In this document: one piece after another, positions 2,958-59,910 of the stretch
How positions within the stretch are numbered: the first letter of the stretch is position 1
Layout of the letters: every line of letters starts with the position of its first letter
Source: Bolinopsis microptera
Lineage: Eukaryota; Ctenophora; Tentaculata; Lobata; Bolinopsidae
Length of the DNA: 64,000 nt
Direction: 5' to 3'
NCBI RefSeq assembly: GCF_026151205.1
Contig: NC_087073.1
Span: forward strand, 4,175,001-4,239,000
Notes under the pieces: model-generated
Database searches by the model: none
What the model was told of the DNA's origin: nothing
What the model saw: the letters and a program-made list of their open reading frames with translations, nothing else
Program-made: the position numbers and the translations under genes

Positions 2958-3243
2958 ATGGCTCCAGTCAGCGGATCTTCTGAACAGAGTGCTGAGAAAA
3001 AGGGGAAATCATCCCGATTCTCCATGAAGAAGAAGAAGAAAGAAGACAAGACTCCTTCTCCGGAGAAAGAGGTTGCAACTCCGGACCAGTCGGCACTGTT
3101 GAGTCCACAGACGGGTTCTGAGAGAAGGGACTCGGACTCGAGCAGTCTGAACCGTAGCACTGTTGGTATCAACACACCCGATGGTGATACTCCTAAACGC
3201 AAATCAGGGTTGAATATGTCCTTCAAGAAAAAGAAGGGCAAAG
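2958..3243 (+). CDS. Coiled-coil gene exon 1 (aa 1-95)
   Basis: Starts at the first ATG after an in-frame upstream stop region and ends AAAG|GTAAAT in phase 1. It encodes the basic Ser/Lys-rich head with both MARCKS-like clusters and several SP or TP sites that could be phosphorylated. Confidence 0.8.
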
Positions 3244-6200
3244 GTAAATCATGTGGTCAAGCTATTAGAATACGTTAATTGAACGTGAGGCATTTCGCAT
3301 TTATATGGTTTTTTTGGCCGATAGTCAAAATATGCATTTCCTCGAAAAATGCCTTTAAATTTAGATATTTAAAATGTTTGATGATATCAGACAAGGCACA
3401 TTATCACCTGAAATATAGCACTCTGTATGTGTGCCTTACGTCCTAAACTACGCTCTATAACTACGCTCTATAATATATAGCAGTGGCGCTGTATATTACT
3501 TTAACATAGGAGTGTGATCTCATACCATAGGATATATAGGGACATTTAATACGCGCATACTTGAGAATAGTGCTGAGGAGACTTGAGAATAGTGCCGAGG
3601 TGCAAGGTGCACATTTAACCAACGTGACAGTATCGTGTCAAACAGATGGTGTCATTTGGTGACCAATACTGGATTATGTGTGTGTGTGTGTGTGTGTGTG
3701 GGGCAGGGTGTGTTAGCATTTTGTAATGTACCGAGAGTGACATAGAGATTATTTTATTGAAGCATGTCCGAGGTACGTGTGGTACACCACTTATTGAGTT
3801 ATATAATTTATAGTTTACGGTCGAGTAAGTGATCAGAAAATTAAAAGTAGTCAGTAAGTACAAGTGCAAAAACACGTGCTTTAATCTGACCAATAAAAGC
3901 AACTTTAACTTCTATTCGAAATCGATGTTAAATTGTTAAAAATGTTATCGCTGCTTTTCCTTAAAAACTAGATGTTTAAATTCTGTGACATGTTCCAGAT
4001 TTTCTAGAATTATTAGCCACAATATTAATTAATTGATAATAAACAAATTAACTGTTTAATAACCCACAGATTTGGGTGCAAGTGCAGAGCACCTCAGAGC
4101 GAGCTCTCAAGATCTTGTGGCCGCCAGGGACAAGGCTGGAATATTGGAGAAGGATCTAGAATCAAAACAGCAGGAACTGGATGGCATCACCACCAAGTAA
4201 ATATGAAGAGTGGTTTTCTGTAGTTAGCGGGGTGGTGAGAATATATATGATCTCCCCAGCTTCTTTTAAAGTTCTTTCTTGTCCACAATGGTAATTACTA
4301 ATAATAAGCAGCCATCTTTGTTATGTTCCTTGCTTTCAAGTTAATCAACAGGGGGTGGGGGGGGGGGGGGGCAACCTCATAAATACCTATTATCCCCCCC
4401 CCCCCCCCTCAAAAACATTTTGGCCCCGGTTATCCACATGGTACTAATTGAAAGAAGCATTATAATAACAATACTTCCTTTCAGGTTATCAGAATTGAAG
4501 TCACGAGTAGATGAGTTGGAGTCAGCTGAGAAGGACCACCTAGAGAAACTAGATGACAGGAAAGCAGAGATTGACAGCTTGAAACGCGAGATATCTCGGC
4601 TGAAGACTGTCGAGGAAGAGGTAAGCAATTTGTTACCAACTGACAGATGTTGTTGTTTTAAGGAGTGGGGGGGGGGGGGTGTTATTACAGAGTCTGTTTG
4701 TACAGGTAGCAGATTCGTACTGTTGGTGTTATTGGGGATGTTTAGTGTACACCGCTTTTATCTGTCAGAACACATTTACCCTTAAATAATATTTTCAACA
4801 ATACAATTTATTGTATAAGATTCTAATAATTTCACATTTCCTCACTTTTTACCTTATCTGCCACATGCTCTAGTGTATCTCTAGTGTACACATTCTAGTC
4901 GCTAGCGCAACTAACACACCTTTTATTGTCCTCACAACAGATTATCAATTGTTCCCACCTGGAGCAAAATGGTGGTAGTTGAAACTTTTTCCACTTCAAA
5001 ACATTCTAAAATATTTGCTCCAGTCTCCTCGAGTCATTAGGGACGACAAATATTTGACTATATAAATACATTGTTTGAGTTTGAATGTCAATACTACAGT
5101 ATAATTATCGTGGTTGTCTGATAACGGTGTCTCGTTCGTAACTCATTATTTAAAACCTGTTTTAGATACAAATTAGTCAATATTATATACCCATCCTCAA
5201 ATCCTACCACTTCTAACCATCTAATGCCTTTTTAAGGCGATGGAAAAAATCTGCTCACTATCACAGAGAATAATAACAGCTATTTAGGAGGAGTTGTTTT
5301 CACTTTTCAGTAGCAGCAGCTGTTGCTGCGAAGTTTTAGGTAGTGCATTGTGTTTACACTGTAATAACAGATAATGTTTCCACCGTGTACTTTCACTTCT
5401 TACATTCTTCATGCTTGACAGTGGATGGCGTTTTTCTCGTGTTCCATGCTGCTTCGTGGTGTCAAATTTTCATCTTCTTGTGGATCCTTCTTGTTCATTC
5501 GAGTTAGCGCTTCAAGTTTAGTCTTCACTGTATATCGTATATCACCTTGCTCATTGTTTTTGAGCAAAAGTTGAAATTAATCCGACAAATTATTAGTAAA
5601 TTTGTAAATCGAGCCTCAATCATTCATGAATCGTCGTATGCGTAATAGAATAATAGCCCAAACTATGAAAACATATCTCAGGATGTAAATAACTAAGAAT
5701 ACCGTGTAATATCCGGATACAAACATTGTTCATTAGTCGCATTATTGTGATGTTTCCGATGAAAATTTCTGATGATTCCGTACGTGTATTACGACAATAC
5801 ACGGAATCATCAGAAATTTTCATTCGAAACACAACGAATATCATTATCAAAATTAATTCAAACTTACTCTGCACATATATAAACTAATTATCGCGATCGT
5901 AGTAATATTACTGTCCTCAGTAAATTTTATCTTTATCTCAAACTGTGAATGAGTTATGATATGTCCACCTCCCTGGCGCTGGCCCAAGCTGCCTTAACTC
6001 TTATCAAGTTATATAGCTTAAATCAAGTTAGATATAGCTTAAAAATCTAAATATGTTCTCGATCAAACCATTATTAAATTTTAGCGCACCTCCATTGTAT
6101 TCGCGTAACCAGATGATTTCTGATAAATATGAACTATAATTTTAGAATATTATATTGATTCATCAAATTTCAAATGGGCTGGCTAAAGTTTTGTTAGATA

Positions 6201-18200: not shown

Positions 18201-21200
18201 ATTCGATCTTCTTGTCGACCAAATTTCGGGTTAGAGTTTTCGACTGACAGGTTACCCCCTTTCAGTTTCCGAAAATAGCGATTATTGTCCTTCAAAGTAC
18301 AATTAATACAAACATATTATGTGACATGAACCAAGAGTGTAGTTTCACAGTAAATCATCACTTGAATGAAACTCATGTTAGTCACGCCACTGCGTCAGCC
18401 ATGTCAATGGATCACTCACCACTAATTAACATGTTATATTCGTACACACACTCCCACACATGAGCGAGCCACAATGTCTGCCGGTCTGCGGCACCCGATT
18501 ACCTGAAGACACCATCTTACACGCATTTTAGGTCACGCGCGCCCGCACGTGACCGGTACATTTGCAGATATCGAATCTACACCCTACACTCGTTTGCCGG
18601 TTTTGTTCAGTACATTTTCGTTGTAGTGGTCGTTACATGTGCTGAGATTCAAACTATCTCCGGATTCCTTAAATACCATCCTCACACTGCACTATCGCAC
18701 TTCTTGAGTGGTCGAGCCCTCAGTAATTCCTTTTCGAGTTCCGTGTCAATTGTTGCTAAATGATGTGTCATACCCAAATTCTTGACATAGAATATTCTAT
18801 CATCGTATGGAAAAGTCGCTTCTTTGCACAAAGTCCGGAATGTTTTACCACTATCACACTTTGCATTACTTAATAAGTGATGCTTATTTCTGTTTTTAGC
18901 TGCTGTGTGTTTGGTATTTCTCCTTGACACTTGTTCATTGCGTCCGTAAACTTGAAAATACAACTTTAAAACGCTCATTTGTCGCCTTGTTCAGGTTTAA
19001 TTCAAGGAATCACACAACTCGCTCAACTTTCTTAGCTCAACTCTCCCCGTTCATTTTGAATCCATTGAACACTATCTGTTCTCTTTACATAGTAAATCTG
19101 CAATCCTGGCGCCGATCAAAGGATCCAAATCTGCAATTCTGGCACCAACCTACACTTCCAAGATCCCCAAGCTCCTTCAGCAACCCGCCACCAATGGGAA
19201 GTCTAGTACCATATACTATTCAGAGGTTTGCTGAACTACATATTAATTGTTAAATTCTCTCTTTCTCTCTCTGCACGTTTATCTTCTCTCTTTTTTTATC
19301 AACTAAAGATGAACCACCCTGGGATAGTCAGTAAACTCTACAGCGCACAGCACTGCATGATTATCCTTAAGCTGTGCGGGTTTCTTTTCAGTGTATACGT
19401 GATACAGAGGTCGTGTTTTTAACGTGCATTACACTGCACACTGCATCGTGATTTTAAATCATGAACAACTAATAACCGTTGGAAGAGTAAAACTGCTAGA
19501 ACTTTTCACAATCCAGTCAGTATACTCGCGTAGTACGTGGTTGTGTTAGTGAGTACGACAGATTATCTAACTGTGTCCCAGAAAAATTAGATAATCTCAG
19601 AGAGAAAACGTCTCATTTACCGGATTTGATGATGTTCTCTCTCTCGCTATCACGGGATTTGTCATTGTGCTTTCAGTATCCATGGTTTGGGATCATTCAT
19701 CTTGAGAGAGCACATCGAGCAGTCATTCAGATTGGCATTTTGATTTATTGAAATCGATTATCTCATGTTATTATCATAATCTTACTCTTAAACTGTAGAT
19801 TCCGCTTCTGTTCATGATCGACGATCAGCATACTTTTTGCCAAATATCATGGTTTTTACGTTTATACCATCATAATAATATGTCAACACTGACTTTGGTT
19901 TAATCACTGACTTTTGTTTTAAGCAGGATAGTTTTAACGAAAGTTTAGAATTTTTTTCGTACGAGGCAGATAAGTACTAATCGGATGAGTAGATGGGACC
20001 GTTTTTATTGTGTCTTTTTGAATATATCTTTATCTATCACTGTGTGTTTGTCGTTACCATTGTGCCGTTTCAATTTGGAATGTTTAATGTTTGTCATGAT
20101 GTACCTGAAGAATGCTGGTAACCCTCCTATTTTCATCTCGCCCCTTTGTGCGGTGATGCCACTTAGCCACTAGCTCCGTATAGACGTTGCTGAACGATTA
20201 ACAAGGTTAACAGTATAATACAAGTATAATAGTATACTCCATGTTTGACGTTTGTAAACTGTTCTATCTTGTGGACCTCGTTTGCAGACACCACCTCACG
20301 TTGCACATCTGGTACGCTTGAACAAACGTCTTTTATTAATATTTAATTGACCGCAGGATGTGCTCCTATTTTCATGTTGCCGGCATCTTTTGATCAATCT
20401 CTTTTCGTGTAGGAGTCAATTTGGCTTAATTGGCGATAATCTCCGGTTTATCTTAGAGCTCACCCGTTTACGATGAGAACAAAAAATTTGGCTTCTGACT
20501 ACTTTTTCTCGACAATTTGTTGAACCGCCCATCGTACCTGATCAGCCAAAACGTGGATAGATATTTGAACCTAGGCAGAGTTGTTAGCGTTCACCTTTAG
20601 GTATGATGGAGTTGGGGCAACTTAGTGCTAATGGTGATACTGAAAATGGAGAAAATGGTCATGATCATCTAAATTGTGAGAATGGCGAAAGTCACCTCGG
20701 TGTTGAGAATGGTGAGAATGGTGTTAACGGCTACAAATTACTTGGTGAACAAACTAAACATCTGTACAATCATACCTTACGGATAATGGTAACTCGCGCT
20801 CTTACAATACAGGGGTTTTATTCGCTGGACTAGCATGGCAATCAATCTCTGACCGCTCGCTGTATAAAGTTGAAAAGGTGTTTTATCGTTGAAAGATTTT
20901 GTAACAACTTAATATTCTTATTTTATAAGAATATTAAGTTGTTGGCATGTAGTCCGTATTTTATTTATCAACGAAAGCGTTTTCAAAACTGTTTTTTAAA
21001 TGACAATCATATGCATGCCCTTATAAGTCGATTGTTGAAAGCTGTTTTTAACAATTCATTGCCGGTCTGTCCTAGCTACTACGGTATAGGACATAACGGC
21101 GTATGACAGTCCGGTGGAAGACGTTACGGTGCAGTTTCCTAAAATATTGGACAGTTCGCCGGCTCAAATGAGACTCACATAACTATGATATGGGCACTAC

Positions 21201-24200
21201 GGTGAACCGGACACAACCAATGTTAAAGTATTAAATCTAGTGTAACCAGACTGTGCACTTAATCTAATCACATGATCCGACTTGATGTTTTCTTTTCAAA
21301 TGAAATTTTGGTCTCCAAGTCTCAATATACTTTCCGTCGTGTAAACGTTAAGATATCTTAAATCACTGATTATTATTGTCGAACTTTTTTAATCAACTGT
21401 TGTCACTTGCCAGACAAAACGTCATTTCTATCATTCCATTGTCTCATAGGGTTTATCAGTCAAGTCATATACAATTAAAAAGGTTAATAGCTTTGATAAC
21501 GAATTTACGCTATTGAAATAAATTAATGCTCTCATAAACTAGATTTGAAATTAAAAAGAGTAGTTAAGTCAAATTGTATTATCATTGGTTATGTCTGGTT
21601 CAGCTGTAGTTTCGTAGTTTCGTGTGATTCCGCCGCGCCGTTCACTCTCTTGGGAAAGTTTGGCCCTACTGTCTCCGCCGTAGTGTCCTATAATATGCTT
21701 AGTTCATTTCTGAGTAGGCATATTCTTTCTCTCATAACTCTTGTTAGACCCTCAGGGTCTTAGACCCTGGATCAGACCCTGGATCTGATATCCGATATGT
21801 TCTATAAAAGTGCATAGTAGCTTCCAGCTTAATGTATGTAGTCACGTACTGTAGTCACGTACTGTAGTCACGTACTGTAGTCACGTACTGTAGTCACGTA
21901 CTGTAGTCACGTACTGTAGTCACGTACTGTAGTCACGTACTGTAGTCACGTACTGTAGTCACGTACTGTAGTCACGTACTGTAGTCACGTACTGTAGAAA
22001 TCATCAAGATCATTAGATCATTTGATTAACTAACGTATAGCAGACCAGACGTATGACCTACTGATTGATGTACTAATAATCCCAGTACTTATTTAGAATA
22101 CTTATATTAGGAGAGTTCTGTGGAAACTTCTGCTGGGTCACCCAATATTATGTCAACCTCCCAGACAGCATTGCTACTGTTCCAATCCAGCAAGGAGTTC
22201 CTGTTCACGTGTAGTTACTCAAGTCAATGTTAAACTTTAATGCGGGAGAATCTTTTCAAGGAGAGAGAGAGAGAACTCGTAACCACCCTGGGTGTATGAC
22301 CTAAATCATAAAATATGCACAATGTTGATCGTGAAGCCCATGAAATCTCGATACCCTGGGCAGGGGGAAACCCGTCAATTCTCAAGCTGGCTCTTTATGT
22401 GGCGTCCTCGACATAGACTGTTGCAGTAAATTACGAGCTCTAGCTTTCTGTTCACTTGTTCCACCATGGAATCAGCACCTCTTGCCACAACCGGAATATC
22501 ACATTATTACTTTTTCTTTTTCTTAAGCGCAGCACTAGTAGTAGTTGTCATGCCCTGATTTTAAACACCCTGTTTGGTGGAATATTATTTACCGTGTACC
22601 CGGATAAACGCCCTGTACTTTACTCGTGTTAGTACATTCTAGCTCCCTACTCCTCCACTAGCTGCTCTCTGCAACCTTCTTTTCCGTGGTTGTATTTTGA
22701 ATATAATTGCTCCGCCGATAGCCCCTTTTCTCAGCCGTGCTGGCTGCTGGTTCACCGCCAAAAAGCAACAAGCACATGATCGTTAGCTGTCGTCCTTTCT
22801 TCCTGTGCGTTTCACACCCTCCACCACTGAAATCCTGTCGTTGCTAATTAGTTTTCAAACTGGACGTTAATCAGGTCGAGTACCTGTCAACAATAAAACC
22901 ACGTACGTGTCAGCCACTACTCATGGGCCAATAATCCGACACTCTGACCTTATCAGGAGACATGTCAACATCTCTGTGTGCACATATATCATCCCTCGCT
23001 GTCACGTGACGCTGACACGTGATTCTGAACCGACCAATAGTATCCCGTAGCTATACCTACCTAGGGATTTAGTAGCTTCTGTCATCCAATATAAATACAC
23101 GCTTTATATATATATATTGTGGAGGTCATCCGCGAGCCATTTTATTTTATATTTACCAAGGAAATGCAGCTTTCTTTTGGTAGATTATTAGATCTTTTGT
23201 AGTATTGTTGTATATACTAGTATTTGTTTGAGATTTTAATTAGCTCGCTTCTCGCTACAGTTAAAGTAGAGCCTTAAGATGGTGCAACGAACCAAGCATC
23301 TCACTCGAGTATGTCTCCTTGCTTCTCTTCTAATCGTTTTGATTTTCACACTTTTTCACTTCATCTTTTATATCTTTTCAAATTTCAGTATATTTCCATC
23401 CCGCCCATTATCTGCAGTCAGTCAATGTTATACAAACACACACTTAGATATGTATTGTATTATAACAGTTGAATTTGTTGAAGTGATACTACAGCTAAGT
23501 TTCAATGTTATAACGCCCACCTAATTAAGGCATCGACCCCAAAATTTTTCGCCCACTTCAATCTCAGTTCTCACATTTCGATCTCGCTTGCTCAACAAAG
23601 TTGTTAACCTTTCCCTTCCTCAGCACGAGCGATTAAAAGCAGAGAATGCTAGACAGTCGGAGGAGACAGCCAGGAAGAACGAGGTAGCCACTCTTAATGC
23701 CACCATTACCACCCGGGATAACGAGATATCCATCCTCAAGAAACAAGTCGACGATTTTGAAAAGGCTAATTCCGTCTCGAAAAAGGTCCTCAAAACCCTT
23801 CAGGTAAACTGAAGATTTCTTTATATCTGTTGGAATTAAGGGGGTTACTTTTTATAGTCCATTTGTATTTTGTAAGCTTTAAAAGTGTTAAGTTTTGTTG
23901 ATATACACCAGATTTTTCAGCATAATATAACCATGTTTCTCCGCAGGTCGACGTCGATGAGCTTGAAGCTCGATTAGCGAAGAAAGACAATGAAAAAGCA
24001 GAACTCACCCGGTCCTTCTCAGAAGATTTTGAAGCAGAATTGGAGAAAGAGAGAGCCAGACACGACGCTGAGTTACAGAAACAGGTCAGTCCCAATTCCC
24101 AAATCTCTATTATATTTTAATAGTTATTCGATATCAATGGTAGCTTGAGTTTAGAAGTATCTCCGTTTTCGACAACAATAGTGCTTTGACTCTAAATTGA

Positions 24201-27200
24201 ATTACTACTGTACTCAAAGTTTGAGTAAAGTAGTAATTCAATTTCGAAATTTTTTAGTTGTAAACATTTTTCAATTTTATTCCTCATAACTTTCTTGCAT
24301 TTTTGCTTTTTCCACTCTTACTTTTTTCAAACTTTAAATTCGTTTAGTAACACTGGTTTTCTCCTGCTTCCTTACATGGTCTTGTAACCGGCCATCATGA
24401 ACAGAGTCAGACTCCCAATTAAAGCATAGGAATCCTCTCAACTTGTCAATGCCTCTGTCATATCATGATCTAACTAGTATTTAACACGGAAACTCCCGTA
24501 CAGGTCGGAGATATTGAAGCTAAGTTGAATGAGAAAGAGAAACAACTGGAAGCTCTGATCGCTGAGCTGAACGAGGCTAAAGCCGAGCAAGAAAACTCAT
24601 CACGAATGGAGAGTGAGTTGGACACGCTGCAGAAACAAATCGAGAGTCTGACCGGCCGACCTACTTCTGAAGGTAAGGCCAAGGAATGCGAATTTTTAAA
24701 ATTCCACATGGCATCAAATTCCATTAAATTAAAAGATGGTCATTTGTCGCGATCGAGTTAAAAGCTTGGACATTTCCCAGCTTTATAGACTCACATACGC
24801 CTAGTTGCGCCTGTTACCCTTGTGTAATGTGTATCCATATTCCACAATGCCTCTCCCTCCTTGTTCCGCCATAAAAATGTCACAAAGCATGCCTGCAGCT
24901 TTAGCAGACACGATTCAGACCTATAATATGTCATGCATAATGACTTGGAGTTATTCTATATCAATTTCGTTATCTTGTGATGAATCTCGGTGAAGGTAGG
25001 CCGTATGGGATCATCATATTACATTAGAGGCCTTACATGAATTCACATGCGGGAGTAGGGAGTAAAATCACATACCTTCCACACCGAGTTAAGATATTTC
25101 TGCAGGCTCGCTGTTGTAGCCCTTGAACACCTGCCACGTATACGAAGCTTACGTCCAAACTGTGCCGGCCAGTTCTTGTGCGCGCTCTCTATTTTGCAGT
25201 ACCGGGCCCCGCCTCTGTTTTTGTTCACTGTTTGTCTCGCGAGAGTTCAGATATATTGTGGAATTTGGATATTATATTTTTGCGTGTGTGTCTAATGTCT
25301 ATATAAGAGGGAGTCTGTGCGTGATATCTATTTATTCTTGTTGTGCCCCTTACCTGACGTGGTGACACGTCCTCAGTTTAGGAAAAGTTAGATTTGTAAC
25401 TTAAACTTGTTGTGTGCTCGGCTAATGTTGTTATTGTGACCCTTTATAATTGTATGATTACATTTGATTTGTGTCTTGTTGTATCAGTGTTCAGAACAGT
25501 ATTATCATTGCTCCACGTACCACGCTTTTTGTTGTTTTTTGTGTTTCGTGCCCTAATATTTCTCTTCGTTACCCCCTCCCAGATATGGCCGAGGTAGAAT
25601 CGCAGCTCGCTGCAATGACGGAAGCTCTGGAGAAGAAGGAGGATGAGCTGATCGAAATGACCGCCATGCACAACATTACTATCCGCGACAATAAAGACCA
25701 GCTGGAAACTTTGGAAGCTGAAGTGTTGAGATTGAGCGATGCACTGAAGGATGCAAATGGTGCCAAAGAATCTTTCGAGGATGAAAATGAGGAGCTGGAG
25801 AAAGAGCTTGCTGCTGCCAAACAAGGTAAATAGTGAGACGAGAGAGTGAGAAGCCAGTGCTTTTGAGTGTGGAAGTGTGAGGGTGAGGCAGAAACTGGGA
25901 GTATATGTGTGAGGGAGGAATGTTGAGTGTGAGTACGTGTGTGAGGGAGGAATGTTAAGTGTGAGTGGAGATAGTGTGTGAGGGAGGAATGTTGAGTGTG
26001 TGTGGAGATAGTGTGTGAAACTGAGAGAGTGATGTGCTGGCAGAGTGTGACGTCATCTAGGCTGTGCAGTGAGAGAGAGAGAGAGAGAGGCGTGTTCACA
26101 GAGTTGAGTGTAAGGAGAGTGACAGATGCCACGTGGCAAAATGGTCACGTGGTACAGCGGTCCTTTCCCTCAATCAATCTTGACAGTAGGCGTACCCTAT
26201 AACAATTCTCTTGAGAGAGCAGGAAGAGCTTTAGAAGCTCGGTAGATTCGTGCGTCAAGGCTCTCGTGCTAGATGTCCTTCACTGAATACGTAGAAACGA
26301 TTTTCTCACGTACCAGTTCCCACCTGTTAATTAACTTAGCTCAGATAACAGATTAGAGTTTAGTTCTAAAGTGGTTGATATAATTTATAAGCACAGATGG
26401 TTAACAAAAGACCCATCTGGAGTACACTGTTAGACCATATATAGTGTAAGCTTGTGAGCGTTTCAAAGTAGCCACCCTTGTAAGTGACGTGTCCTAACTC
26501 AACAATAAGAGAGAGAACATTCTAGAACAATTTGTGAGTGTGAGTTTCAATGATCTAAAGTGTCTGCACTTGGAGAAGGAACGATTCTTGATTTATTGGA
26601 GCTGATCGAATTACACGCTGTAAATTGTTAAAGTTGCTGAGAATTATTTGTACCGCGCTGACTGGATCATGGTTACATATACACTGGTAGACATTATTTT
26701 ACATCTGCACTGATGAGGCGTGGTGATGTACACTGTCCGAAGACACGTACGGCTATACAATTTATTAAGAGTTTGGCGCTGAGAACATGGTTATTTAATT
26801 TCGGTGAAGTATTCCGAGGAGTGGCCCTGCTGAGCAGTTTTAGTCGCCGATGTGGTTGTGATTTAATTAAACTTTAAAGTTAAAATGAAGTCGCTAATTA
26901 AAGTTATAGTAATGTAACCACAGCATGAGAAATGAGAATGTTACATGAACATACAGCATGAGAACAATACTCACGATATTAAATTGTTGTAACATGTGCA
27001 CAGCGTATCCTTCTTGCTGATATTCATTGAACCCGCCCTTCTTTCCGCGCCAGATGCCGAACAGAAAGTATCTGAACTGCGTGAACAGCTAAACCTGGAA
27101 ACAAACGAGGCTAAAACCGCGGCCAAAACCGCGGCAGACCAATGTCTGAGTTTATCCTCGGAAGTTGAACTCCTGACTAAGGAGCTCGCTGTTTCCAAGG

Positions 27201-30200
27201 AAGGTAATGGCTGCACATCTGATCTCACATGATTAATTCTTAAGCGAAGAGTTATTTAATTTCAGCGACTCGAAGTTTTTTTGAGGAGTGACCCTGCTGA
27301 GCAGTAAACAGCCGATATGGTTGTGAATTGTGATTTTATTAAATTTGAAATATAGTCGCTAATTAAAGTTATAGTAATGTAACCACAGCACGAGAATGTT
27401 ACATGAACATACAGCATGAAAACAATAGTAACGATATTAAACTGCTGTTATATGTGAATAATAACCGAGAGACTTATGTGTAGTGTATACTTCGCGCTGA
27501 TATTCATTGAACCCGCCTTCTTTCCGCGCCAGATGCCGAACAGGAACTAGCTGAACTGCATGAGCAGCTAAACCTGGAATCAGACAAGACTAAAATTGCG
27601 GCAGACAGTTGTCTGAGTTTATCCTCGGAAGTTGAACTTCTGACAAAGGAGCTCGCTGTTTCCAAAGAAGGTAATGGCTGCACATGATTGATTCTAAAGT
27701 GATATTGCTCACCTCCACATCATCCAGATCTTTTTGATTTGAAAACCTAGAGACCGCCTTTTTGATTTAAAAACCGAGAGACGTTCTTTTGATTTAAAAA
27801 CCGAGACCACCTTTTTGATTTAAAAACCGAGACCACCTATACTCACACCTCAGCATCTTGAACCACTGATTGCTGCACATTTGATTGAATTATATACTGG
27901 GTAAAGATTAGCGCGGTGTGATCTGTACAGTGTACGTGTGTTTCAGTCTACTTATCTGTAACTGTTTAGTGTTTACTCTATTGATTTGTGAGGAAAGGTG
28001 TTGATAACTGGAGCTGTATGTGGCTGGGCGCGGCTGTCACTTATATTTACATGCATTTAACGTGATGAAATCTTACACAATTCAAACCGCTGTATTGATC
28101 AACTATTTTTCGCTTTTTCAGATTGTGAGAACCTTCTCACTAAAAACAAAGCTGCTAGTGAATTCATCGTAGAGCTCCAAAATGACTTGAAGGCAGCAGA
28201 TGAAGAAAAAACTTCCCTCGAGCATGAACATGACAAGTTGAAAGAGCAGCTTGCAGCTGTTCAACTTGGTAATACATCTTGTATATACATCTAGGCGTTT
28301 TAAAGATATAGTACTGAGCTTCGATTCCATATAACTTCGCATCGAATAATGCTTCGTTTTAAGCTAAATAGTAATCTATGGCCTATCAACTTTACAATAA
28401 GCTGTGTTTATGCATTGATTTTAGCTATGAATTTGGGTGCTTTTAACGATGGCTCAGGAGTGAGGAATAGATAAATACATACGGAGATAGAATTAGATAA
28501 ATCAGTCCTGAACTTTCTCTATATTCACTGCATTTTCAGAGGCCAGCGAAAAGTCAAATGCTCTAGAAGCTACTATTGCTGCCCTGCAGACCGAGCTTAA
28601 CAACATGAAGAACAGCCAAGTCTCTGCCATATCAGATGCTGAGTCGGAGATTTCAGAAAAATCCGAGGAGCTAGCAGTAGTTCAATCGGAAAACGAATCC
28701 CTGGAAGCCGAGAAAGAAATTCTCATGGTTGAAAAGGAAGAAAAATCAGAGCTGCTAGCAGCTGCTCTGTCCGATAACGAATCCTTGGAATCCGAGAAGG
28801 ATGTTATCCTGGGTGAAAAAGAAAACCTAGAATCCGCCAGTGCCGAACTGCAGTCTGAGGTAGAAACTTACAAGAAAGATCTTGAAGCCCTGGCAGAATC
28901 ACACCACAATCTCCAGCTTCAGATCCAATCGCTTCAAGGTGATCACAGTAAGCTGAACGAGGATCTGGTCACTCTCCAGGAACAACTTGCTAAAGCTTCC
29001 TCCGAGAGGGACGCCGCCCTGACAGAGCTGGACTCGGCCAGGGAGGAGATGAACCTCAAGATCGAGGAAGAAGTGCTGAAGAAATCTGCTGAGATCGTGG
29101 TTGAACAGGAGCAGGTTAAGACCTTGACCTCGAGCCTGAGCGAATATGAGGGCCAGATTGCTGGCTACAAGTCCAAGCTGGAGGAAATGCAAAAATTGGC
29201 CGATCAGCTTGATTCTGTGAACGGTAAATTTGTTGTCTTTATGTTTTATGATTTGTATTTCGTCGTATTTGTAGATAATCCGCTGGCTTATCTTGCCACT
29301 GATGTTATTTCGATGTTTGTCCCAATTGTAGAATGTAGATGTTGTAACCACACTGAGATGGTAACAATGAAGTACTTATAATAATTATTTAATTGCTAAC
29401 CTCCATTTCAGCTGAACTGACCAAATCTCAAGCCGAAGCTAACTCCATTCGACAAAAGTATGACGAATTAGACGGTAAGTTGTAGAAACATTTCAAGATG
29501 GCTTCTTAACTTTGCTCCTTTATGTTTCAGTTTCATAGATGTTTTGTGGTTTCGATTTGATTTGTAAAAGCAAACGTGAAACATCATTTAAGAGATACTC
29601 AACTTCCGAACTCAAATCAATAGCCATTAAAGTTTAAACACTTATCTTAGCATTTACACGATACAGTTCATCCGAGATTCAGGATGGAATCAATCCAGAT
29701 ATTATACCCTAACAAGTACATAAAAGCATAGATCATAGAACAACTACTGGCTAACTAATTAAGTATTTTAAAACCACCCTTTGTGTTGCTTATTTACTAA
29801 GCATGGTTTTCCAACGTATGTGCGCTACGCTAATCGCCTATTGCTTTGTGAGCCATGCATGTTCATGAATATCATTAATACAGGAGAGTTTAAGGTCAAG
29901 GACTCTTTGATCAAGTCGACAAAAGATTATAATGACGATCTCATGAAGCAATTGTCAGAGGCTAAACAGAGTGGCGACAAATTACAAAAATCGTTGAATA
30001 ATTACGAGAATTCCCAAAAAACGCGGGAAGGTAACATTAATGGCTTGCGAATGCGGTTCATGCCTATTCGTGACCGCTATGAAAGCGGTCGATATCCGTG
30101 CACGCTGCTTTGATAAATAATCCCCCAATCCACATTCCACACGCTGCTTGAATCACGATGGAATTCAGTCAGTTCGGTTCAATTGACGCACTGTTCAGCA

Positions 30201-31864
30201 AATTCAATTAAATACTCCAATTTTGCTGAGCAGTGTTTCAACTTCTAGTGCAATATGAACATGAAAGTAAACTGAGCTGACTGAACTTTATCCATGGTAT
30301 TAATAGTCCAAATTTAATACTATGTATCTTTTCATATAATACGCGCATGATTGAGTTAAATCCCAGCATGTTATTACTGTCCAACATCATCTAAACTAAA
30401 ATATTGGTCGTGGACAAAATCAAACACAAACGTTTAATTTTTAAAAGCTGTAGAATCAGTAGTCAGTCAAGAGTCACGATTAGATTTGTTAAATTGAACC
30501 CCAAAGATCATATAATATGAATGTGATATGATAATTCGATTTTTGGTGTGAACATTAGAAGAATTCCATAATTATGATCCAGATCATTAATAATTGTCTA
30601 GGTAGTATTTCAAAATCAAACGCATGACTATTGATTGCATTTCTGCTGATATTGTATTGCTTTCCGTGGGTAAATTAAGAATTGTTATTAGGCATTGCAT
30701 TTATACTATTCGTGTTATTTAAATGTTAACCAATAACCATATTACATCCTAACTTACAAGATTTGACGATTTATTTACTTCATTGCGTCTTTGTTTTTAC
30801 TCCTTGCATTTTCGGACATAATTTTCCTACCATCACCATAACATTGAACATCACAGGCAAAGCCGAGCGAACGATCAGCAAGAATGAAAAAGAACTTAAA
30901 GATCTGAAGGCTGCTCTGAACAAAGCCACCAAAGAGGCTGTCTCCAACCAGAAGGAAACTAAGCGCAGCAAAGATCAGCTGCTGAACGTGAAGGCAAACC
31001 TGAAGGAGACCCAAGATAAGCTGACCAGGATCTCGAAAGAGAAAAAGACTCTGCAAGTCCAGCTGAACACTCCACCCACCACCCCCTCCCCTCCCCCTGC
31101 CACCGTCACTGAAAACGGAGACATCCAGAGCTTAGGTTAGTCGGATAGTCAATTGTACATCTAATTCCAACCACATAATGATGAGTTGCGAATTTACTCA
31201 TATAGGGGAAAACATTTTTGTTTGAGTTTATGTACTATGCATCTCTGGATCTATTATTATTTTCTCCTACAGATAAGATTAAGTCTCTGGAGAACCAGAT
31301 AAAAGACCTAAAGAAACAGAAGGAATCTAAGAAGGCTTTAGCGGAACCATCACCGAAGGAGCAGTCTCAAACGGTAATTAGTGTAATTAGTGTTCTTTTT
31401 CAATCACTGAAGGAGCAGTCTCAAACTGTAATTAGTGTAATTAGTGTTCTTTTTCAATCACTGAAGGAGCAGTCTCAAACTGTAATTAGTGTAATTAGTG
31501 TTCTTTTTCAATCACTGAAGGAGCAGTCTCAAACGGTAATTAGTGTAATTAGTGTTCTTTTTCAATCACTGAAGGAGCAGTCTCAAACGGTAATTAGTGT
31601 AATTAGTGTAATTAGTGTTCTTTTCCAATCCTTGTTTTATTAAAACCGTTGCTAACTATCAGACAATGTTATACGCATAGTTTATGCCCTTACCTTAGTT
31701 CCGTGTCAATCAGAAACTTTCTTTAATCCATCCTTTTTATATCTTTGATTCACTAATTTATAATGAAAATATTTTGTTTCCAGGGCGTAATGATGGGAGC
31801 CATTGGTCTGGCGGGGGTCAGCAGTGCACTCAGTGCTTACATCGCCACTCTCTACGGTTGCTAA
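2958..31864 (+). CDS. Long tail-anchored coiled-coil protein with MARCKS-like basic N-terminus (16 exons, 1022 aa)
   Basis: Exons: 2958-3243, 4070-4196, 4485-4620, 23624-23803, 23947-24084, 24504-24672, 25583-25825, 27054-27203, 27533-27670, 28122-28268, 28540-29223, 29412-29474, 29884-30030, 30857-31135, 31273-31373, 31784-31864. All introns are GT..AG and the phases match throughout; the sum is 3069 nt. Residues 1-95 are Ser/Lys/Pro-rich with two basic clusters (SSRFSMKKKKK and NMSFKKKKGK) that resemble the membrane- and calmodulin-binding MARCKS effector. Residues about 105-965 are Glu/Lys/Leu heptads with few prolines until a Pro/Thr stretch near 945-955. The last 26 residues are a Gly/Ala-rich hydrophobic helix ending in YGC, typical of a tail anchor. 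By architecture this fits a golgin-, kinectin- or giantin-like tether at ER or Golgi membranes; that role is inference. Missed small exons are possible. Confidence 0.85.
4070..4196 (+). CDS. Coiled-coil gene exon 2 (aa 96-137)
   Basis: Acceptor CCCACAG|AT, donor CCAA|GTAAAT. Its first two bases complete the Asp codon begun in exon 1. The coiled coil starts here (LVAARDKAGILEKDLESKQ). Confidence 0.8.
4485..4620 (+). CDS. Coiled-coil gene exon 3 (aa 138-183)
   Basis: Acceptor CTTTCAG|G, donor GAAGAG|GTAAGC in phase 0. Regular heptads (LSELKSRVDELESAEKDHL). The following intron is 19,003 bases long. Confidence 0.82.
4621..6999. other. First part of intron 3, no supported exon
   Basis: Mostly AT-rich sequence with a poly-G tract at about 4669-4679. 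The one clear structure is the hairpin at 5757-5826. A 74-codon open frame starting with ATG at 6532 lacks splice sites or a recognisable motif. Confidence 0.5.
5757..5826. repeat. Near-perfect 70-bp hairpin
   Basis: Arms of about 25 bases share GAAAATTTCTGATGATTCCG and its complement. The inner parts also pair (GTGTATT with AATACAC), leaving a loop of only a few bases. It could be a tiny foldback MITE remnant; I see no clear target duplication. Confidence 0.75.
7025..7345 (-). CDS. Nested minus-strand gene, terminal exon (107 codons with stop)
   Basis: On the minus strand an acceptor CTACCCAG precedes GGG ACA GCA and an open frame of 106 residues ends in TAG at 7025. The codons read like a folded domain (VELVFDWSSNQTMSLKWAV, with VIQFVKFKPIPSNR near the end) but I do not recognise the family. 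The opposite strand is also open over 7080-7394, yet that reading has no matching splice sites. The previous exon ends in phase 0, as this one needs. It lies wholly within intron 3 of the coiled-coil gene, antisense to it. Confidence 0.55.
   Translation of the reverse strand, partial: GTAYLHEIKVVCERVELVFDWSSNQTMSLKWAVKLVEGETGHSGSDCTFLRARFNTNLMIGVVFDGEVACDDLFRCTFSDGVIQFVKFKPIPSNRCGNDWFSNLRI
7438..7584 (-). CDS. Nested minus-strand gene, penultimate exon (49 codons)
   Basis: Minus-strand acceptor TTCATTCTCAG|GTT and donor CTGCAG|GTAAGG bracket exactly 49 codons in phase 0-0, joining cleanly to the exon at 7025-7345 across a 92-base intron. The product starts VHSITINVPGLGDTIS and ends ETVLRNKLQ. 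No family was recognised. Upstream exons should lie to the right; blocks at 8845-9126 and 10425-10647 are candidates. Confidence 0.55.
7666..8105. repeat. 16-bp minisatellite, about 27 copies
   Basis: Perfect or near-perfect head-to-tail copies of CGCTCCCAAACTAGCA. The only variants seen are two copies with CACACTCCC in place of CACGCTCCC, near 7873 and 7938. Such homogeneity implies very recent expansion. It sits in intron 3, just upstream (in minus-strand sense) of the nested gene exons. Confidence 0.97.
8845..9126 (-). CDS. Candidate minus-strand exon block
   Basis: Open minus-strand frame of 93 codons with GC-rich third positions over 8990-9120 (motif TIVAVNGHRAPLHCKVVQ) and a possible internal acceptor TATTTACAG near 8985 before SEFLGENDQELLRRHLAM. 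It may be an upstream exon of the nested gene ending at 7025. Its phase does not connect directly to the exon at 7438-7584, so at least one further exon would be needed. No family recognised. Confidence 0.35.
   Translation of the reverse strand: MVLNLARGQGKEGTIVAVNGHRAPLHCKVVQGGGQGTEEFGGIFIIYRSEFLGENDQELLRRHLAMCKVGRIQNLLNSNNIGSNWQEQKYRQP
9532..9806 (+). CDS. Candidate plus-strand exon, unassigned
   Basis: Acceptor CGTTTCCAG|GA and a consensus donor TATGAT|GTAAGT enclose a fully open frame (2 nt plus 91 codons) with the internal sequence KTINIEFDELSLKVKK. It leaves in phase 0 and enters in phase 1. It could belong to a nested plus-strand gene in intron 3. Splicing between exon 1 (phase 1 out) and exon 4 of the coiled-coil gene would also keep frame, but the product is not coiled coil. 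Not recognised. Confidence 0.45.
10193..10243. repeat. 27-bp direct repeat, two copies
   Basis: The motif CGAAGTGCTGAACTATTTCG followed by TGTTTGT occurs twice with a short spacer, just before the exon-like blocks near 10.4-10.8 kb. Confidence 0.85.
10425..10647 (-). CDS. Candidate minus-strand exon, unassigned
   Basis: On the minus strand, CGCTTTTCTAG precedes an open frame of about 74 codons (HGSWLTIQKDEILFDVKYKA, later NNRIEQIKFRTLPTETQTY) with a possible donor GAGCG|GTAACT. Good codon content but no recognised domain. It may be a 5' exon of the nested minus-strand gene. Confidence 0.35.
10681..10837 (+). CDS. Candidate plus-strand exon, unassigned
   Basis: Acceptor ACGTGCAG|T and donor ATCGCT|GTAAGA enclose 1 nt plus 52 codons with strong codon bias (NLYSVLNTDFSLRLNRQDEV). 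It enters in phase 2 and leaves in phase 0, so it cannot follow 9532-9806 directly. A nested plus-strand gene with a missing exon is the simplest explanation. Not recognised. Confidence 0.4.
11889..12020. repeat. Dispersed repeat copy 1 (pair with 13577-13707)
   Basis: Shares about 130 bases with 13577-13707, including GGTCAGGTCTGAATATACCA and the ending GGACGCCCTC. Copies are in direct orientation 1.7 kb apart and differ by scattered substitutions. The family is not recognised. Confidence 0.85.
13577..13707. repeat. Dispersed repeat copy 2
   Basis: Second copy of the repeat at 11889-12020, same orientation, with small indels. Confidence 0.85.
15779..15849. repeat. 17-bp tandem repeat, four copies
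   Basis: Head-to-tail copies of CCTTTACTATTATACCC inside the left end of the 2-kb element. Diverged versions of the same array occur in the other two copies of that end (near 34940 and 55260). Confidence 0.85.
15873..15930. other. Two adjacent perfect GC hairpins with GAA triloops
   Basis: 15873-15891 is an 8-bp stem (GTGCACGC) closed by GAA; 15896-15930 is a 16-bp stem (GCCGGAGGCGGCGGCC) also closed by GAA. Four bases separate them. The first contains GCGAAGC, known as an exceptionally stable DNA mini-hairpin. The 55-kb copy of the host element lacks this segment, so it is an insertion or local expansion. Confidence 0.9.
17329..17838. repeat. Inverted repeat, about 147-bp arms
   Basis: Left arm 17329-17475 and right arm 17691-17838 are near-perfect complements with a 215-base loop. 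The arms carry the conserved block ACCGAGAATGAAATCGGTCG and end in CCATAATCATGG-type sequence. They form the right end of the 2-kb element. Confidence 0.9.
18682..18978 (-). CDS. Open minus-strand frame, unassigned
   Basis: A 98-codon frame with plausible codon content (RNTKHTAAKNRNKHHLLSNA, then TIDTELEKELLRARPLKK) ends in TGA. A weak acceptor TATTTTCAAG lies near its start. It could be the terminal exon of an otherwise unseen minus-strand gene or a transposon remnant. No family recognised. Confidence 0.25.
   Translation of the reverse strand: MSVLKLYFQVYGRNEQVSRRNTKHTAAKNRNKHHLLSNAKCDSGKTFRTLCKEATFPYDDRIFYVKNLGMTHHLATIDTELEKELLRARPLKKCDSAV
19093..19234 (+). CDS. Candidate plus-strand terminal exon with SKSAILAP repeats
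   Basis: After acceptor TTTACATAG an open frame encodes the motif SKSAILAP twice in a row (separated by IKG), then TYTSKIPKLLQQPATNGKSS, ending SEVC and TGA at 19232-19234. The three differences between the two SAILAP-coding copies fall at third codon positions and are all synonymous, which is what selection on a protein would leave. It enters in phase 2. Parent gene unknown; it sits in intron 3 of the coiled-coil gene. Confidence 0.4.
20603..20788 (+). CDS. Candidate alternative first exon of the coiled-coil gene (62 aa)
   Basis: An ATG opens a 62-codon frame rich in Asn-Gly-Glu repeats (NGDTENGENG, VENGENGVNG) and ends at ATAATG|GTAACT in phase 0, the phase needed by exon 4 at 23624. The head it would supply is acidic, replacing the basic MARCKS-like head made by exons 1-3. 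I see no TATA box. A separate small gene is the alternative. Confidence 0.45.
20905..20941. repeat. Perfect 17-bp stem hairpin
   Basis: CAACTTAATATTCTTAT pairs perfectly with its complement across a TTT loop. It lies 117 bases after the candidate exon at 20603-20788 and is too AT-rich to suggest an RNA gene. Confidence 0.9.
21107..22980. other. Intron 3 stretch with 13-bp minisatellite
   Basis: Apart from the 13-bp array and a short GA run near 22260, I see a palindromic patch with repeated AGACCCTGGATC at 21747-21790 and no supported exon. Confidence 0.5.
21838..21996. repeat. 13-bp minisatellite, 12 copies
   Basis: Twelve essentially identical head-to-tail copies of GTAGTCACGTACT. The unit contains TACGTGA-type self-complementary sequence, so single strands can fold locally. 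Confidence 0.97.
23003..23097 (+). promoter_or_regulatory. Candidate internal promoter: two E-boxes, CCAAT, TATA
   Basis: Two CACGTG E-boxes (23003-23008 and 23016-23021), a CCAAT at 23033, then CCAAT overlapping TATAAATA at 23086-23097 form a compact promoter-like cluster 180 bases before the short exon at 23279. CACGTG is the classic site of Myc/Max, USF and MiT-family factors. Confidence 0.5.
23279..23308 (+). CDS. Candidate alternative first exon of the coiled-coil gene (10 aa)
   Basis: ATG followed by nine codons (MVQRTKHLTR) and a strong donor CGA|GTATGT in phase 0. Exon 4 begins 315 bases later in the same phase. With the promoter cluster just upstream this would give a shorter protein of about 849 residues lacking the MARCKS-like head. 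Supported by signals only, not by transcript data. Confidence 0.5.
23624..23803 (+). CDS. Coiled-coil gene exon 4 (aa 184-243)
   Basis: Acceptor TTCCTCAG|CAC, donor CTTCAG|GTAAAC, phase 0-0, 60 codons. Clear heptads (NEISILKKQVDDFEKANS). First exon shared by all proposed transcript starts. Confidence 0.85.
23947..24084 (+). CDS. Coiled-coil gene exon 5 (aa 244-289)
   Basis: Acceptor CTCCGCAG|GTC, donor AAACAG|GTCAGT, phase 0-0, 46 codons of coiled coil (DELEARLAKKDNEKAEL). Confidence 0.85.
24194..24244. repeat. Intronic hairpin with 15-bp arms
   Basis: AAATTGAATTACTAC and its exact complement flank a loop that itself can pair (TACTCAAA with TTTGAGTA). It lies within intron 5 and could be a small foldback element. 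Confidence 0.85.
24504..24672 (+). CDS. Coiled-coil gene exon 6 (aa 290-345)
   Basis: Acceptor CCGTACAG|GTC, donor GAAG|GTAAGG. This exon switches the reading from phase 0 to phase 1; all following introns up to exon 15 are phase 1. Confidence 0.85.
25583..25825 (+). CDS. Coiled-coil gene exon 7 (aa 346-426)
   Basis: Acceptor CCTCCCAG|AT, donor ACAAG|GTAAAT, phase 1-1, 81 codons. The minus strand is open across this exon too, but that is the usual shadow of a Glu/Lys-rich coil. Confidence 0.87.
25851..26095. repeat. Purine-rich imperfect repeats in intron 7
   Basis: Irregular copies of GTGTGAGGGAGGAATGTTGA and a terminal GA run. Strong purine bias on the plus strand; no coding meaning. Confidence 0.7.
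27054..27203 (+). CDS. Coiled-coil gene exon 8 (aa 427-476)
   Basis: Acceptor CGCGCCAG|AT, donor GGAAG|GTAATG, phase 1-1, 50 codons. Its internal 12-base duplication adds one AKTA-type unit (AKTAAKTAADQ) relative to its paralogue exon 9. Confidence 0.85.
27533..27670 (+). CDS. Coiled-coil gene exon 9 (aa 477-522), duplicate of exon 8
   Basis: Same splice sites and phase as exon 8, 46 codons, with conservative changes (ELAELHEQLNLESDKTK). Both copies remain open and spliceable, so both probably enter the mRNA. Confidence 0.85.
27727..27838. repeat. 27-bp imperfect tandem repeat, four copies
   Basis: Copies of CTTTTTGATTTAAAAACCGA followed by GACCAC or similar, located in intron 9. Confidence 0.85.
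28122..28268 (+). CDS. Coiled-coil gene exon 10 (aa 523-571)
   Basis: Acceptor CTTTTTCAG|AT, donor ACTTG|GTAATA, phase 1-1, 49 codons, heptads throughout (HDKLKEQLAAVQL). Confidence 0.85.
28540..29223 (+). CDS. Coiled-coil gene exon 11 (aa 572-799), longest exon
   Basis: Acceptor CATTTTCAG|AG, donor GAACG|GTAAAT, phase 1-1, 228 codons. It contains two related blocks of the type SENESLEAEKE and SDNESLESEKD, pointing to an internal duplication of a 30-residue unit within the coil. Confidence 0.88.
29412..29474 (+). CDS. Coiled-coil gene exon 12 (aa 800-820)
   Basis: Acceptor CATTTCAG|CT, donor GACG|GTAAGT, phase 1-1, 21 codons, exactly three heptads. Confidence 0.8.
29884..30030 (+). CDS. Coiled-coil gene exon 13 (aa 821-869)
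   Basis: Acceptor AATACAG|GA, donor GGAAG|GTAACA, phase 1-1, 49 codons of coil. Confidence 0.83.
30157..30297. repeat. Imperfect 140-bp foldback in intron 13
   Basis: Outer arms carry GTTCAGTCAG-type sequence and its complement. Inner arms CACTGTTCAGCAAATT and AATTTTGCTGAGCAGTG pair well. This looks like a decayed foldback MITE. Confidence 0.7.
30857..31135 (+). CDS. Coiled-coil gene exon 14 (aa 870-962)
   Basis: Acceptor ACATCACAG|GC, donor CTTAG|GTTAGT, phase 1-1, 93 codons. A basic coil ends in a flexible Pro/Thr hinge (TPPTTPSPPPATVT) before the last coil segment and membrane anchor. Confidence 0.86.
31273..31373 (+). CDS. Coiled-coil gene exon 15 (aa 963-996), donor reiterated
   Basis: Acceptor CTCCTACAG|AT, shortest-form donor CAAACG|GTAATT at 31373 in phase 0. 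The final codons KEQSQT and the donor are the start of the 54-bp array that follows, so four more identical donors are available downstream. Confidence 0.8.
31353..31640 (+). repeat. 54-bp tandem repeat spanning a splice donor, five copies
   Basis: Each 54-base unit contains the exon end GAAGGAGCAGTCTCAAAC plus the donor GTAATT and a pyrimidine-rich stretch. Equivalent exon ends fall at 31373, 31427, 31481, 31535 and 31589. Because 54 is divisible by 3 and the array has no stop codon, use of a later donor inserts 18-residue units (VISVISVLFQSLKEQSQT) without a frameshift. Confidence 0.92.
31784..31864 (+). CDS. Coiled-coil gene exon 16 (aa 997-1022), membrane anchor
   Basis: Acceptor TGTTTCCAG|GGC in phase 0; 26 codons and TAA. 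The segment MMGAIGLAGVSSALSAYIAT is a single hydrophobic helix with small-residue spacing at the extreme C-terminus, as in tail-anchored proteins. Confidence 0.85.
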   Translation, partial: GVMMGAIGLAGVSSALSAYIATLYGC

Positions 31865-32475
31865 GCAACTTATTTCAGCTACTCCTCCTTTCCCCATTTT
31901 TATCCACCAAATTAGATGTAATAACTTATATTTTAAAATTAAAGGTGTTTCTGCTTACTTTTTGTTTGTTATTGAGCGCTGTGGCCTTTTTCTATCGAAA
32001 CCGCCCGACGATGTCTGAGAGCGGTCGAGATATTAATTCTCCATCCAATAATATGCTTCTAGTTTAAAGTATTAGAGGTATTTGTTTACTATAAAGCTGA
32101 CAAATTGAGTGGAGACGATTCTCTCTGAGTCTGACCCTTTTATCAGCCATCTCGTTTAGTTGTCACTGTTTTAAATGGTGCGGCCAACGTCTCATATTTT
32201 TCGATTACTACTAAATACGACATTTGATATGTGGGTTATATAGCTAATCATCGTAGCTCAGTTACAGTTTCTCTATTTTTAATAAGAAGATATGGTTCAT
32301 TAAATCTGATTCACCGACGAGAAATGAATTTCGTGCTCAACTAGCCACAGTTGATGCACCGAATTCTACATTATTACTTCAAGTTTTGTTAAGAAGATTG
32401 AGAAATTGAACTGTTAATTTTGTTTTGATTGTAATTGTTCTTTAATTCAATTTAATAAATTGAGTCTATAACTTG
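31865..32475 (+). other. 3' untranslated region of the coiled-coil gene
   Basis: AT-rich sequence following the stop codon, closed by AATAAA at 32454-32459. No further coding exon is needed after the stop. Confidence 0.6.
32454..32459 (+). promoter_or_regulatory. Polyadenylation signal AATAAA
   Basis: Canonical hexamer 590 bases after the stop codon, with TG-rich sequence shortly after (GAGTCTATAACTTGTTCC). Confidence 0.55.
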
Positions 32476-38521: not shown

Positions 38522-38944
38522 CTGCTATGCTTGTAATTAATAGCGGTACCAAAAGAAATAATAGTGATACAACGGTAAACCCACTAAAATTTGTGGTGCC
38601 ATCAGTTAGATAAAATAGTTCACAGTCAATAATGAGTATGAAAACGATCGCTGTAGCCATAGCTACAATGTTACTCGAATTCTCAACAACCACTGCAGAA
38701 GGTTTGTTTTGATATAAAACTACTAATCGCTAATCAAGAATCCATTTAGTTTTGTATTTAGACTAGAAATAATGCAGTGCAGGAGATCTCCCGGAAGGTA
38801 AAAGAAGACAGCTAGCTAAACGATGCAAATCTGTGTTTGAATAAGCTGTGTTTGTAGCGCTCTATACGCGCATGACCGCCCACGTGCATTTCAGAGTTGT
38901 ATCGACTAATTCATACATGATACACCCAGTTGAAATCTCTATAT

Positions 38945-39290
38945 AATTACTAGTTAATTAGTAGTTAATTTCTTGTTAATGGCTTGTTAATGAATTGCTA
39001 ATGACTTGTTCATTACTAGTTAATGACTTGTCAATTACTTGTTAATTAATTCTTAATGACTTGCTAATTACTTGATAATTACTTGCTAATTACTAGTAAA
39101 TGACTTGTTAATTACTTGCTAATTACTTGTTAATTACTAGTTAATGACTTGTTAATGACTTGTTAATGACTTGTTAATGACTTGTTAATGACTTGTTCAT
39201 TACTAGTTAGTGACTTGCTAATTACTTGCTAATTACATGATAATTACATGCTTATTACTTGTTAATGACTTGTTAATGACTAGCTAATTA
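38945..39290. repeat. Degenerate 11-bp tandem repeat
   Basis: About 30 imperfect copies of TTGTTAATGAC with the variants TTGCTAATTAC and TAGTTAATGAC. Higher divergence than the 16-bp and 13-bp arrays, so it is older. Confidence 0.85.
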
Positions 39291-39355
39291 CCAGTAACCA
39301 GGAAAATTTATGTGTGGAAGATTACAGATAAACGCTCAATATAACTTTATAAGAT

Positions 39356-40183: not shown

Positions 40184-41304
40184 AAGTTGGTCGTTTAGCT
40201 CCGGACAGTCTATGCAACGTCTATGCAACGTCCGTGCAACAACAAAAGAACCGTCTATGCAACGTCTATGCAACGTCCCTGCACAATGAACACTCTATGC
40301 ACACTCCCTGCACGGTCAGTCTATGCAACGTCTATGCAACGTCTATGCAACGTCCCTGCACAGTACCATATGAACACCGGCTACTAGCCGGCTACTAGCC
40401 GGCTAGTAGCCACTTTTGTAATAACAGCTCCTCAACTTCACATTAACAACCGGCTACTAACCGGCACTTGAAAAGTGGTCACTAGCCGGCTACTAACCGG
40501 CTACTAGCCGGCTAGTGACCACAAAGTGGCTACTAACCGGCTACTAAGCGGTCACTAGCCGGCTATTAGCCGAGCTCTAAAGCAGACCTATTAGTAGCCG
40601 GTTCTAAACCGGCTACTAGCCGGCACTTGAAAAGCGGTCACTAGCCGGCTACTAACCGGCTACTAACCGGCTAGTAACCACCAAGTGGCTACTAACCGGT
40701 CACTAGCCGGCTTTTCGAGTGCCGGCTAGTAGGTCCGCTTAAGAGCCGGCTAGTGACCGGTTAGTAGCCGGTTAGTAGCCACTTGGTGGTTACTAGCCGG
40801 TTAGTAGCCGGTTAGTAGCCGGCTAGTGACCGCTTTCTAAGTGCCGGCTAGTAGCCGGTTTGGAACCGGCTACTAGTAGGTCTGCTTTAGAGCTTGGCTA
40901 ATAGCCGGCTAGTGACCGCTTAGTAGCCGGTTAGTAGCCACTTTGTGGTCACTAGCCGGCTAGTAGCCGGTTAGTAACCGGCTAGTGACCACTTTTCAAG
41001 TGCCGGTTAGTAGCCGGTTTGTAATGTGAAGTTGAGGAGCTGTTATTACAAAAGTGGCTACTAGCCGGCTAGTAGCCGGCTAGTAGCCGGTGTTCATATG
41101 GTACTGTGCAGGGACGTTGCATAGACGTTGCATAGACGTTGCATAGACGTTGCATAGACGTTGCATAGACTGACCGTGCAGGGAGTGTGCATAGAGTGTT
41201 CATTGTGCAGGGACGTTGCATAGACGTTGCATAGACGGTTCTTTTGTTGTTGCATGGACGTTGCATAGACGTTGCATAGACTGTCCGGAGCTAAACGACC
41301 AAGT
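40184..41304. mobile_element. 1.1-kb foldback element (giant palindrome)
   Basis: Long near-perfect inverted repeat: the outer arms start TTGGTCGTTTAGCTCCGGACAG and end in its complement. Outer parts are arrays of CGTCTATGCAA; inner parts are arrays of CTACTAGCCGG-type units; the centre is near 40730. Short open frames inside simply translate the repeats. Typical foldback transposon structure; no target duplication was defined. Confidence 0.88.
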
Positions 41305-59890: not shown

Positions 59891-59910
59891 CTACTAATGA
59901 GTAGTCTCAC

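Follow-up and report, generated by a model that had tools for sequence, protein, structure and literature searches.

Gene model and array

We analysed a stretch of 64,000 nucleotides of the ctenophore Bolinopsis microptera (NCBI RefSeq assembly GCF_026151205.1, contig NC_087073.1, positions 4,175,001 to 4,239,000 of the forward strand), called here the window, and all coordinates below refer to it. Its plus strand carries a candidate gene for a coiled-coil protein, in which a 54-bp minisatellite lies across the end of exon 15 and the start of intron 15 and repeats the 5' splice site of that exon. The gene model was drawn by hand from sequence alone, using a composition scan and splice sites chosen by eye, and was joined and checked by script. 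It has a coding sequence at 2958-31864, with 16 exons, 15 GT-AG introns, consistent phases and a product of 1022 residues (Table 1). The exon numbers 15 and 16 used in a preliminary description of this DNA agree with this model. The predicted protein consists of a basic N-terminus, which we take to be MARCKS-like, a long coiled coil (judged from composition and by eye), a Pro/Ser/Thr linker and a hydrophobic C-terminus of 26 residues. The latter is a putative membrane anchor, with a best 19-residue Kyte-Doolittle mean of 1.64 that is borderline for this role.

The largest exon, exon 11, has a single match in the genome, itself, in a search that covered this exon alone. No Pfam family was found at E 0.01 in the three plus-strand frames of 12,501-32,303. 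The joined protein gave sub-cut-off Pfam scores only, with Fez1 at 18.8 bits (cut-off 34.4) and Filament at 16.4 (cut-off 40), which is the usual behaviour of coiled coils. The shortest modelled intron measures 137 nt; intron 3 measures 19,003 nt and may conceal further exons. A stop-free stretch in it (20588-20830, ...SANGDTENGENGHDHLNCENGESHLGVENGENG...) lies between AG and GT and matches no Pfam family; it has phase 1-1, at odds with the 0-0 junction on either side. Exons 8 and 9 are tandem duplicates of each other (aligned with 121 identities, 17 mismatches and 12 gap positions), with flanks that are alike over 63 nt upstream (53 identities) and less alike over 97 nt downstream (57 identities). 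Two 84-bp repeats with 77% matches are found at 28655-28823, within exon 11, so that the gene has grown by internal duplication too.

Tandem Repeats Finder (TRF), run on the window, describes the array as 4.8 copies of a 54-bp unit with 98% matches, 0% indels and a score of 501. An array of this score is not due to chance. It is in register from 31350 and crosses the modelled boundary 31373/31374, as the preliminary description had claimed in placing a 54-bp repeat over the end of exon 15 and its 5' splice site. Each unit joins about 24 nt from the end of exon 15 (TCACTGAAGGAGCAGTCTCAAACG) to about 30 nt from the start of intron 15. Copy 2 is the same as copy 3, and the only departure of copy 4 from these two is a G for T directly before GTAATT. 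Copy 1 also has this G, together with the exon's own CCG where copies 2-5 have CTG. Copy 5 has one extra GTAATTAGT 9-mer (three versus two), after which unique intron sequence takes over. The four internal unit junctions are all the same.

A DNA search of the whole assembly (264,652,675 bases in 232 contigs, simple repeats skipped) returned one full match for the array locus, itself. We considered and rejected a second copy or paralogue of the repeat: the four matches are the locus itself and three on sequence C5, and on C5 the matching stretch, a (GTGTAATTA)n satellite of 43.8 copies, has nothing but the 9-mer in common with the array. Rfam gave no match at gathering thresholds.

Table 1. Modelled exons, array copies and signals of the candidate gene (a slash marks the exon-intron border at a donor)
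Feature	Position	Strand	Remarks
Exon 1	2958..3243	+	open frame; ATG, basic N-terminus, donor AAG/GTAAAT, phase 1
Exon 2	4070..4196	+	
Exon 3	4485..4620	+	
Exon 4	23624..23803	+	
Exon 5	23947..24084	+	
Exon 6	24504..24672	+	
Exon 7	25583..25825	+	
Exon 8	27054..27203	+	
Exon 9	27533..27670	+	
Exon 10	28122..28268	+	
Exon 11	28540..29223	+	
Exon 12	29412..29474	+	
Exon 13	29884..30030	+	
Exon 14	30857..31135	+	
Exon 15	31273..31373	+	CAG acceptor, phase 1 in/0 out; coiled-coil end and linker ...AEPSPKEQSQT, donor 1 ACG/GTAATT
Minisatellite, 54 bp, 4.8 copies	31349..31609	+	TRF and register
Intron 15 with donor 1	31374..31783	+	410 nt
Copy 2	31404..31457	+	weak donor ACT/GTAATT after 31427
Copy 3	31458..31511	+	same sequence as copy 2; weak donor ACT/GTAATT after 31481
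Copy 4	31512..31565	+	donor ACG/GTAATT after 31535, same as donor 1
Copy 5	31566..31640	+	three GTAATTAGT 9-mers, diverged end; donor ACG/GTAATT after 31589
TAA ending the frame upon retention of intron 15	31641..31643	+	ATTAAA starts at 31639
Exon 16	31784..31864	+	TTTCCAG acceptor, phase 0; 26 residues GVMMGAIGLAGVSSALSAYIATLYGC, putative membrane anchor, stop

Reading frame and strength of the candidate donors

Stop codons are absent from the unit in the exon-15 frame only, both other forward frames having stops. The unit is thus 18 stop-free codons, as first described, and the joins of donors 1-5 to the acceptor of exon 16 at 31784 are all open, giving 1022, 1040, 1058, 1076 and 1094 residues with a single terminal stop each. 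The 18-residue insert reads VISVISVLFQSLKEQSQT. Its multiples would lie where the preliminary description had put them, between the last coiled-coil/proline segment and the short hydrophobic C-terminal exon. The in-frame state of the array is nothing striking. Of 30-nt pieces of intron 3 (from 4701-20500), a fraction of 0.57 is stop-free in a given frame; multiplying this value for ten open intron codons by one third, for a period that is a multiple of three, gives a chance of about 0.2.

The candidate donors follow positions 31373, 31427, 31481, 31535 and 31589 at a spacing of exactly 54. The array had been said to hold five identical donors. Five GTAATT sites every 54 bases are indeed present, but only three of the five donors are identical, the base at -1 being G, T, T, G and G in copies 1 to 5. 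Scored with a position weight matrix and paired with a U1 5' end, donors 1, 4 and 5 reach 2.20, within the top 3.4% of the 3983 plus-strand GTs in the window, and a U1 duplex of -5.3 kcal/mol; donors 2 and 3 reach -1.88 and a duplex of -1.4 kcal/mol. The latter are close to a decoy within the units, AGT/GTAATT, which scores -1.90 (U1 duplex -2.4). Of the 15 modelled donors, donor 1 included, 14 have G at -1, one has A and none has T. By sequence, donors 2 and 3 are poor, and 4 and 5 equal donor 1 in strength. With the -1 G missing from donors 2 and 3 and their scores at the level of the decoy, the sequence favours 0, 3 or 4 inserts and does not support the continuous series of 0 to 4 inserts proposed before.

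Repeat load of the genome

Tandem repeats of any period occupy 10.4% of 199,900 bases sampled from C5 and from C2, the contig that holds the window; in the gene span they take up 5.2% (1499 bases, the 261 of the array included). One of the 30 modelled splice sites, the donor at 31373, lies inside an array, where about 1.6 are expected (about 1.3 without this array). A minisatellite on a splice site is thus an expected by-product of the repeat load of this genome. We also surveyed 15 non-redundant arrays, one in the window and 14 in a sample of 20 stretches of 10 kb on C2 and C5 (period 20-200, at least 2.5 copies, at least 85% matches), for donor-like sites on either strand, with a mononucleotide shuffle as control. 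At a threshold of 2.2 such sites occur in 3 of 15 arrays against a shuffle mean of 3.7, at 4 in 1 of 15 against 1.8, and at 6 in 1 of 15 against 0.5, a count that 79 of 200 shuffles reached. Donor-like sites are therefore not enriched in the minisatellite units of these 15 arrays, a small sample. The 54-bp array scored 2.16 in this survey and hence falls outside the three.

The window is rich in tandem repeats. Further minisatellites, mainly of 11-16 bp, are found at 7666-8105, 21837-21997, 38944-39291 and 40208-41281, and one window minisatellite of 13 bp is perfect according to TRF (12.4 copies, 100%). A separate stretch, L036, carries at its own positions 6958-7485 a 33-bp minisatellite of 15 copies that is open on both strands (175 residues on the minus strand, 187 on the plus strand). 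Its plus-strand consensus unit contains GTAAGT and TTTCTTTAG. We did not count it as a second splice-site array because its minus strand encodes (PPKEMSDLPEH)n in the 175-residue open frame.

Origin of the array

Tandem duplications of exon-intron boundaries were described in 2010 in lancelet globin genes (PMC3087553) under the name 'mirages', which goes back to Adh3 (Canestro et al. 2002, as cited there). We think that the array is probably a young mirage, mostly intronic, which arose by tandem amplification of the end of exon 15 with the start of intron 15. About 24 nt of the former and 30 nt of the latter would have been duplicated together. The founding duplication may have joined its ends at a short shared ATC (exon CCATC, intron flank CCAATC), and the unit would then have multiplied through unequal exchange or slippage. 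That all four internal junctions are the same points to probably one founding duplication, and the differences among units fit one founding junction followed by amplification, which supports the mirage, as does the 98% identity of the units. The -1 change of copies 2 and 3 is perhaps one mutation copied once, since both copies are identical, and the missing -1 G in two of the four extra donors could arise without selection to keep them. Splicing would take place mostly at one donor, so that the array would lie in the intron. The most likely main donor is the original donor 1, an assignment to which we give about even confidence. Some use of donors 4 and 5 could lengthen the protein by 54 or 72 residues, and copy number presumably differs between haplotypes.

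Several points weigh against a mostly intronic mirage. The exon boundary and the main donor are predictions from sequence. The frame is open through all copies, as would also be seen for a coding array. The matrix scores of two other modelled donors, 0.81 and -1.04, are lower than that of donor 1; a low score is thus no proof of a dead site. In classical in-vitro experiments with duplicated identical 5' splice sites, the intron-proximal site is reported to be preferred, which would be donor 5 here. Finally, the lancelet precedent belongs to another phylum.

It is possible, albeit doubtful, that both spare donors of this mirage outside lancelets are used. The gene would then encode a tail-anchored coiled-coil protein with a tether extended by 0, 54 or 72 residues, differing between alleles and transcripts, and the variable number of tandem repeats (VNTR) would be exonic or intronic according to splicing. 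Such a locus would offer a natural test of how the spliceosome chooses between identical 5' splice sites, and a minisatellite that converts intron to protein in steps of 18 residues. If the extra donors are unused, the locus suggests that mirages arise, and are tolerated, in another animal lineage.

Alternative readings of the array

Donor choice might instead produce isoforms with different numbers of the 18-residue insert (0, 3 or 4 by sequence), i.e. a length-adjustable linker before the putative anchor. All five donors keep the frame, donors 1, 4 and 5 share the site and nearly the same exon context, and the site lies within the Pro/Ser/Lys linker that follows the coil. We nevertheless regard this as unlikely. 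Donors 2 and 3 are degraded, and the intron-derived half of the insert VISVISVLFQSLKEQSQT is hydrophobic, like T-rich non-coding sequence. Lancelet mirages are moreover reported as regularly spliced (PMC3087553), for which reason the length-adjustable linker is kept here as a hypothesis. If the extra donors were used, copy number, i.e. genotype, would set the length as much as donor choice.

A strong intron-proximal donor (31589, perhaps 31535) might also be used constitutively. Three or four inserts would then always be present and linker length would follow the copy number of the allele, as in a coding VNTR. Donors 4 and 5 match donor 1 in strength and lie closer to the 3' splice site, the frame is open throughout, and the proximity rule known from biochemical studies argues in the same direction. 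The lancelet precedent (PMC3087553) points the opposite way, and we consider a coding VNTR of this kind quite improbable.

Retention of intron 15, or early polyadenylation, would let the frame read through to the TAA at 31641-31643 and give an anchorless isoform of 1085 residues. The 89 open codons past donor 1 are the longest such run among the 15 modelled donors, and an ATTAAA starts at 31639. However, open runs above 50 codons (54 and 52) occur in two other introns, the array itself extends the open run, and ATTAAA is frequent in A+T-rich DNA, which leaves this reading with very little probability. A nascent intron or micro-exon, in which the acceptor-like AG of one copy (TTCTTTTTCAATCACTGAAG/GAG in the unit) would pair with an upstream donor, deserves next to no credence: the unit does contain both a donor and a pyrimidine tract, and the mechanism is described for potato RdRp (PMC4974935) and proposed for lancelet globins (PMC3087553), but an intron formed between adjacent copies would measure about 39 nt against a modelled minimum of 137 nt (pairing across at least two copies would give a longer one), and the first AG downstream of the tract reads GAAG, unlike the CAG that ends all 15 modelled acceptors.

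Other features of the window and the assembly

A retrotransposon remnant with a reverse transcriptase domain (RVT_1, E 4.3e-10) lies at 47891-48631; the open reading frame (ORF) next to it, at 48635-49168, matched no Pfam family. Two similar tandem ORFs on the minus strand (59150-59668 and 59897-60397; 173 and 167 residues) have a ...AHLAIDLDLETRPFIGRGE... stretch in common. Neither matched a Pfam family; the two may resemble fucolectin-like domains. In the assembly, Wnt gave at least 17 matches at at least five places and innexin at least 18 matches on at least six contigs; a combination of few Wnts with many innexins is what a ctenophore would be expected to show. COX1 was not found in the assembly, and an innexin of this genome found no relative in the PDB at E 1e-10.

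Comparison with known systems

Coding VNTRs and alternative tandem 5' splice sites share with this array a repeat that is a multiple of three in or beside coding sequence. They differ in that over half of each 54-bp unit is intron-derived here and its inclusion in mRNA is putative. No literature on competing donors was found. Among the papers listed, our literature search also turned up no mirage named outside lancelets, which is weak evidence of absence as most subscription journals lay outside its coverage.

In the model of intron gain by tandem duplication (Rogers model), of which the potato RdRp gene with one intron gained via boundary duplication is an example (PMC4974935), an intron-exon boundary is likewise duplicated and brings extra splice signals. 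The spacing of neighbouring copies is, however, shorter here than the modelled introns of the gene. Mirages themselves are offered as a model for intron gain in PMC3087553, where two haplotypes of one gene are reported to hold 6 and 3 units and many units to carry extra AG/GT signals. The Adh3 data and globin RT-PCR (reverse transcription PCR) presented there suggest regular splicing despite the extra splice sites. In lancelet PGBD5, splice sites are overlain by imperfect repeats of 60 and 108 bp; the same paper (PMC3902484) states that no aberrant mRNA results from the mirages of Adh and TnC.

The closest likeness is to these lancelet cases (BflGb6, BflGb9, Adh3, TnC and PGBD5), in which a minisatellite unit spans an exon-intron boundary and holds splice signals. 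In BflGb9 it is the 3' boundary of the exon that is duplicated, as in exon 15 here, and the unit sizes (10-72 bp in Adh3, 60 and 108 bp in PGBD5) are similar to 54 bp. In contrast to the lancelet mirages, the present array is in a ctenophore, its 54-bp unit is stop-free in the exon frame, and two of its extra donors carry a -1 change. It would thus be a further case of the known mirage type, here outside lancelets.

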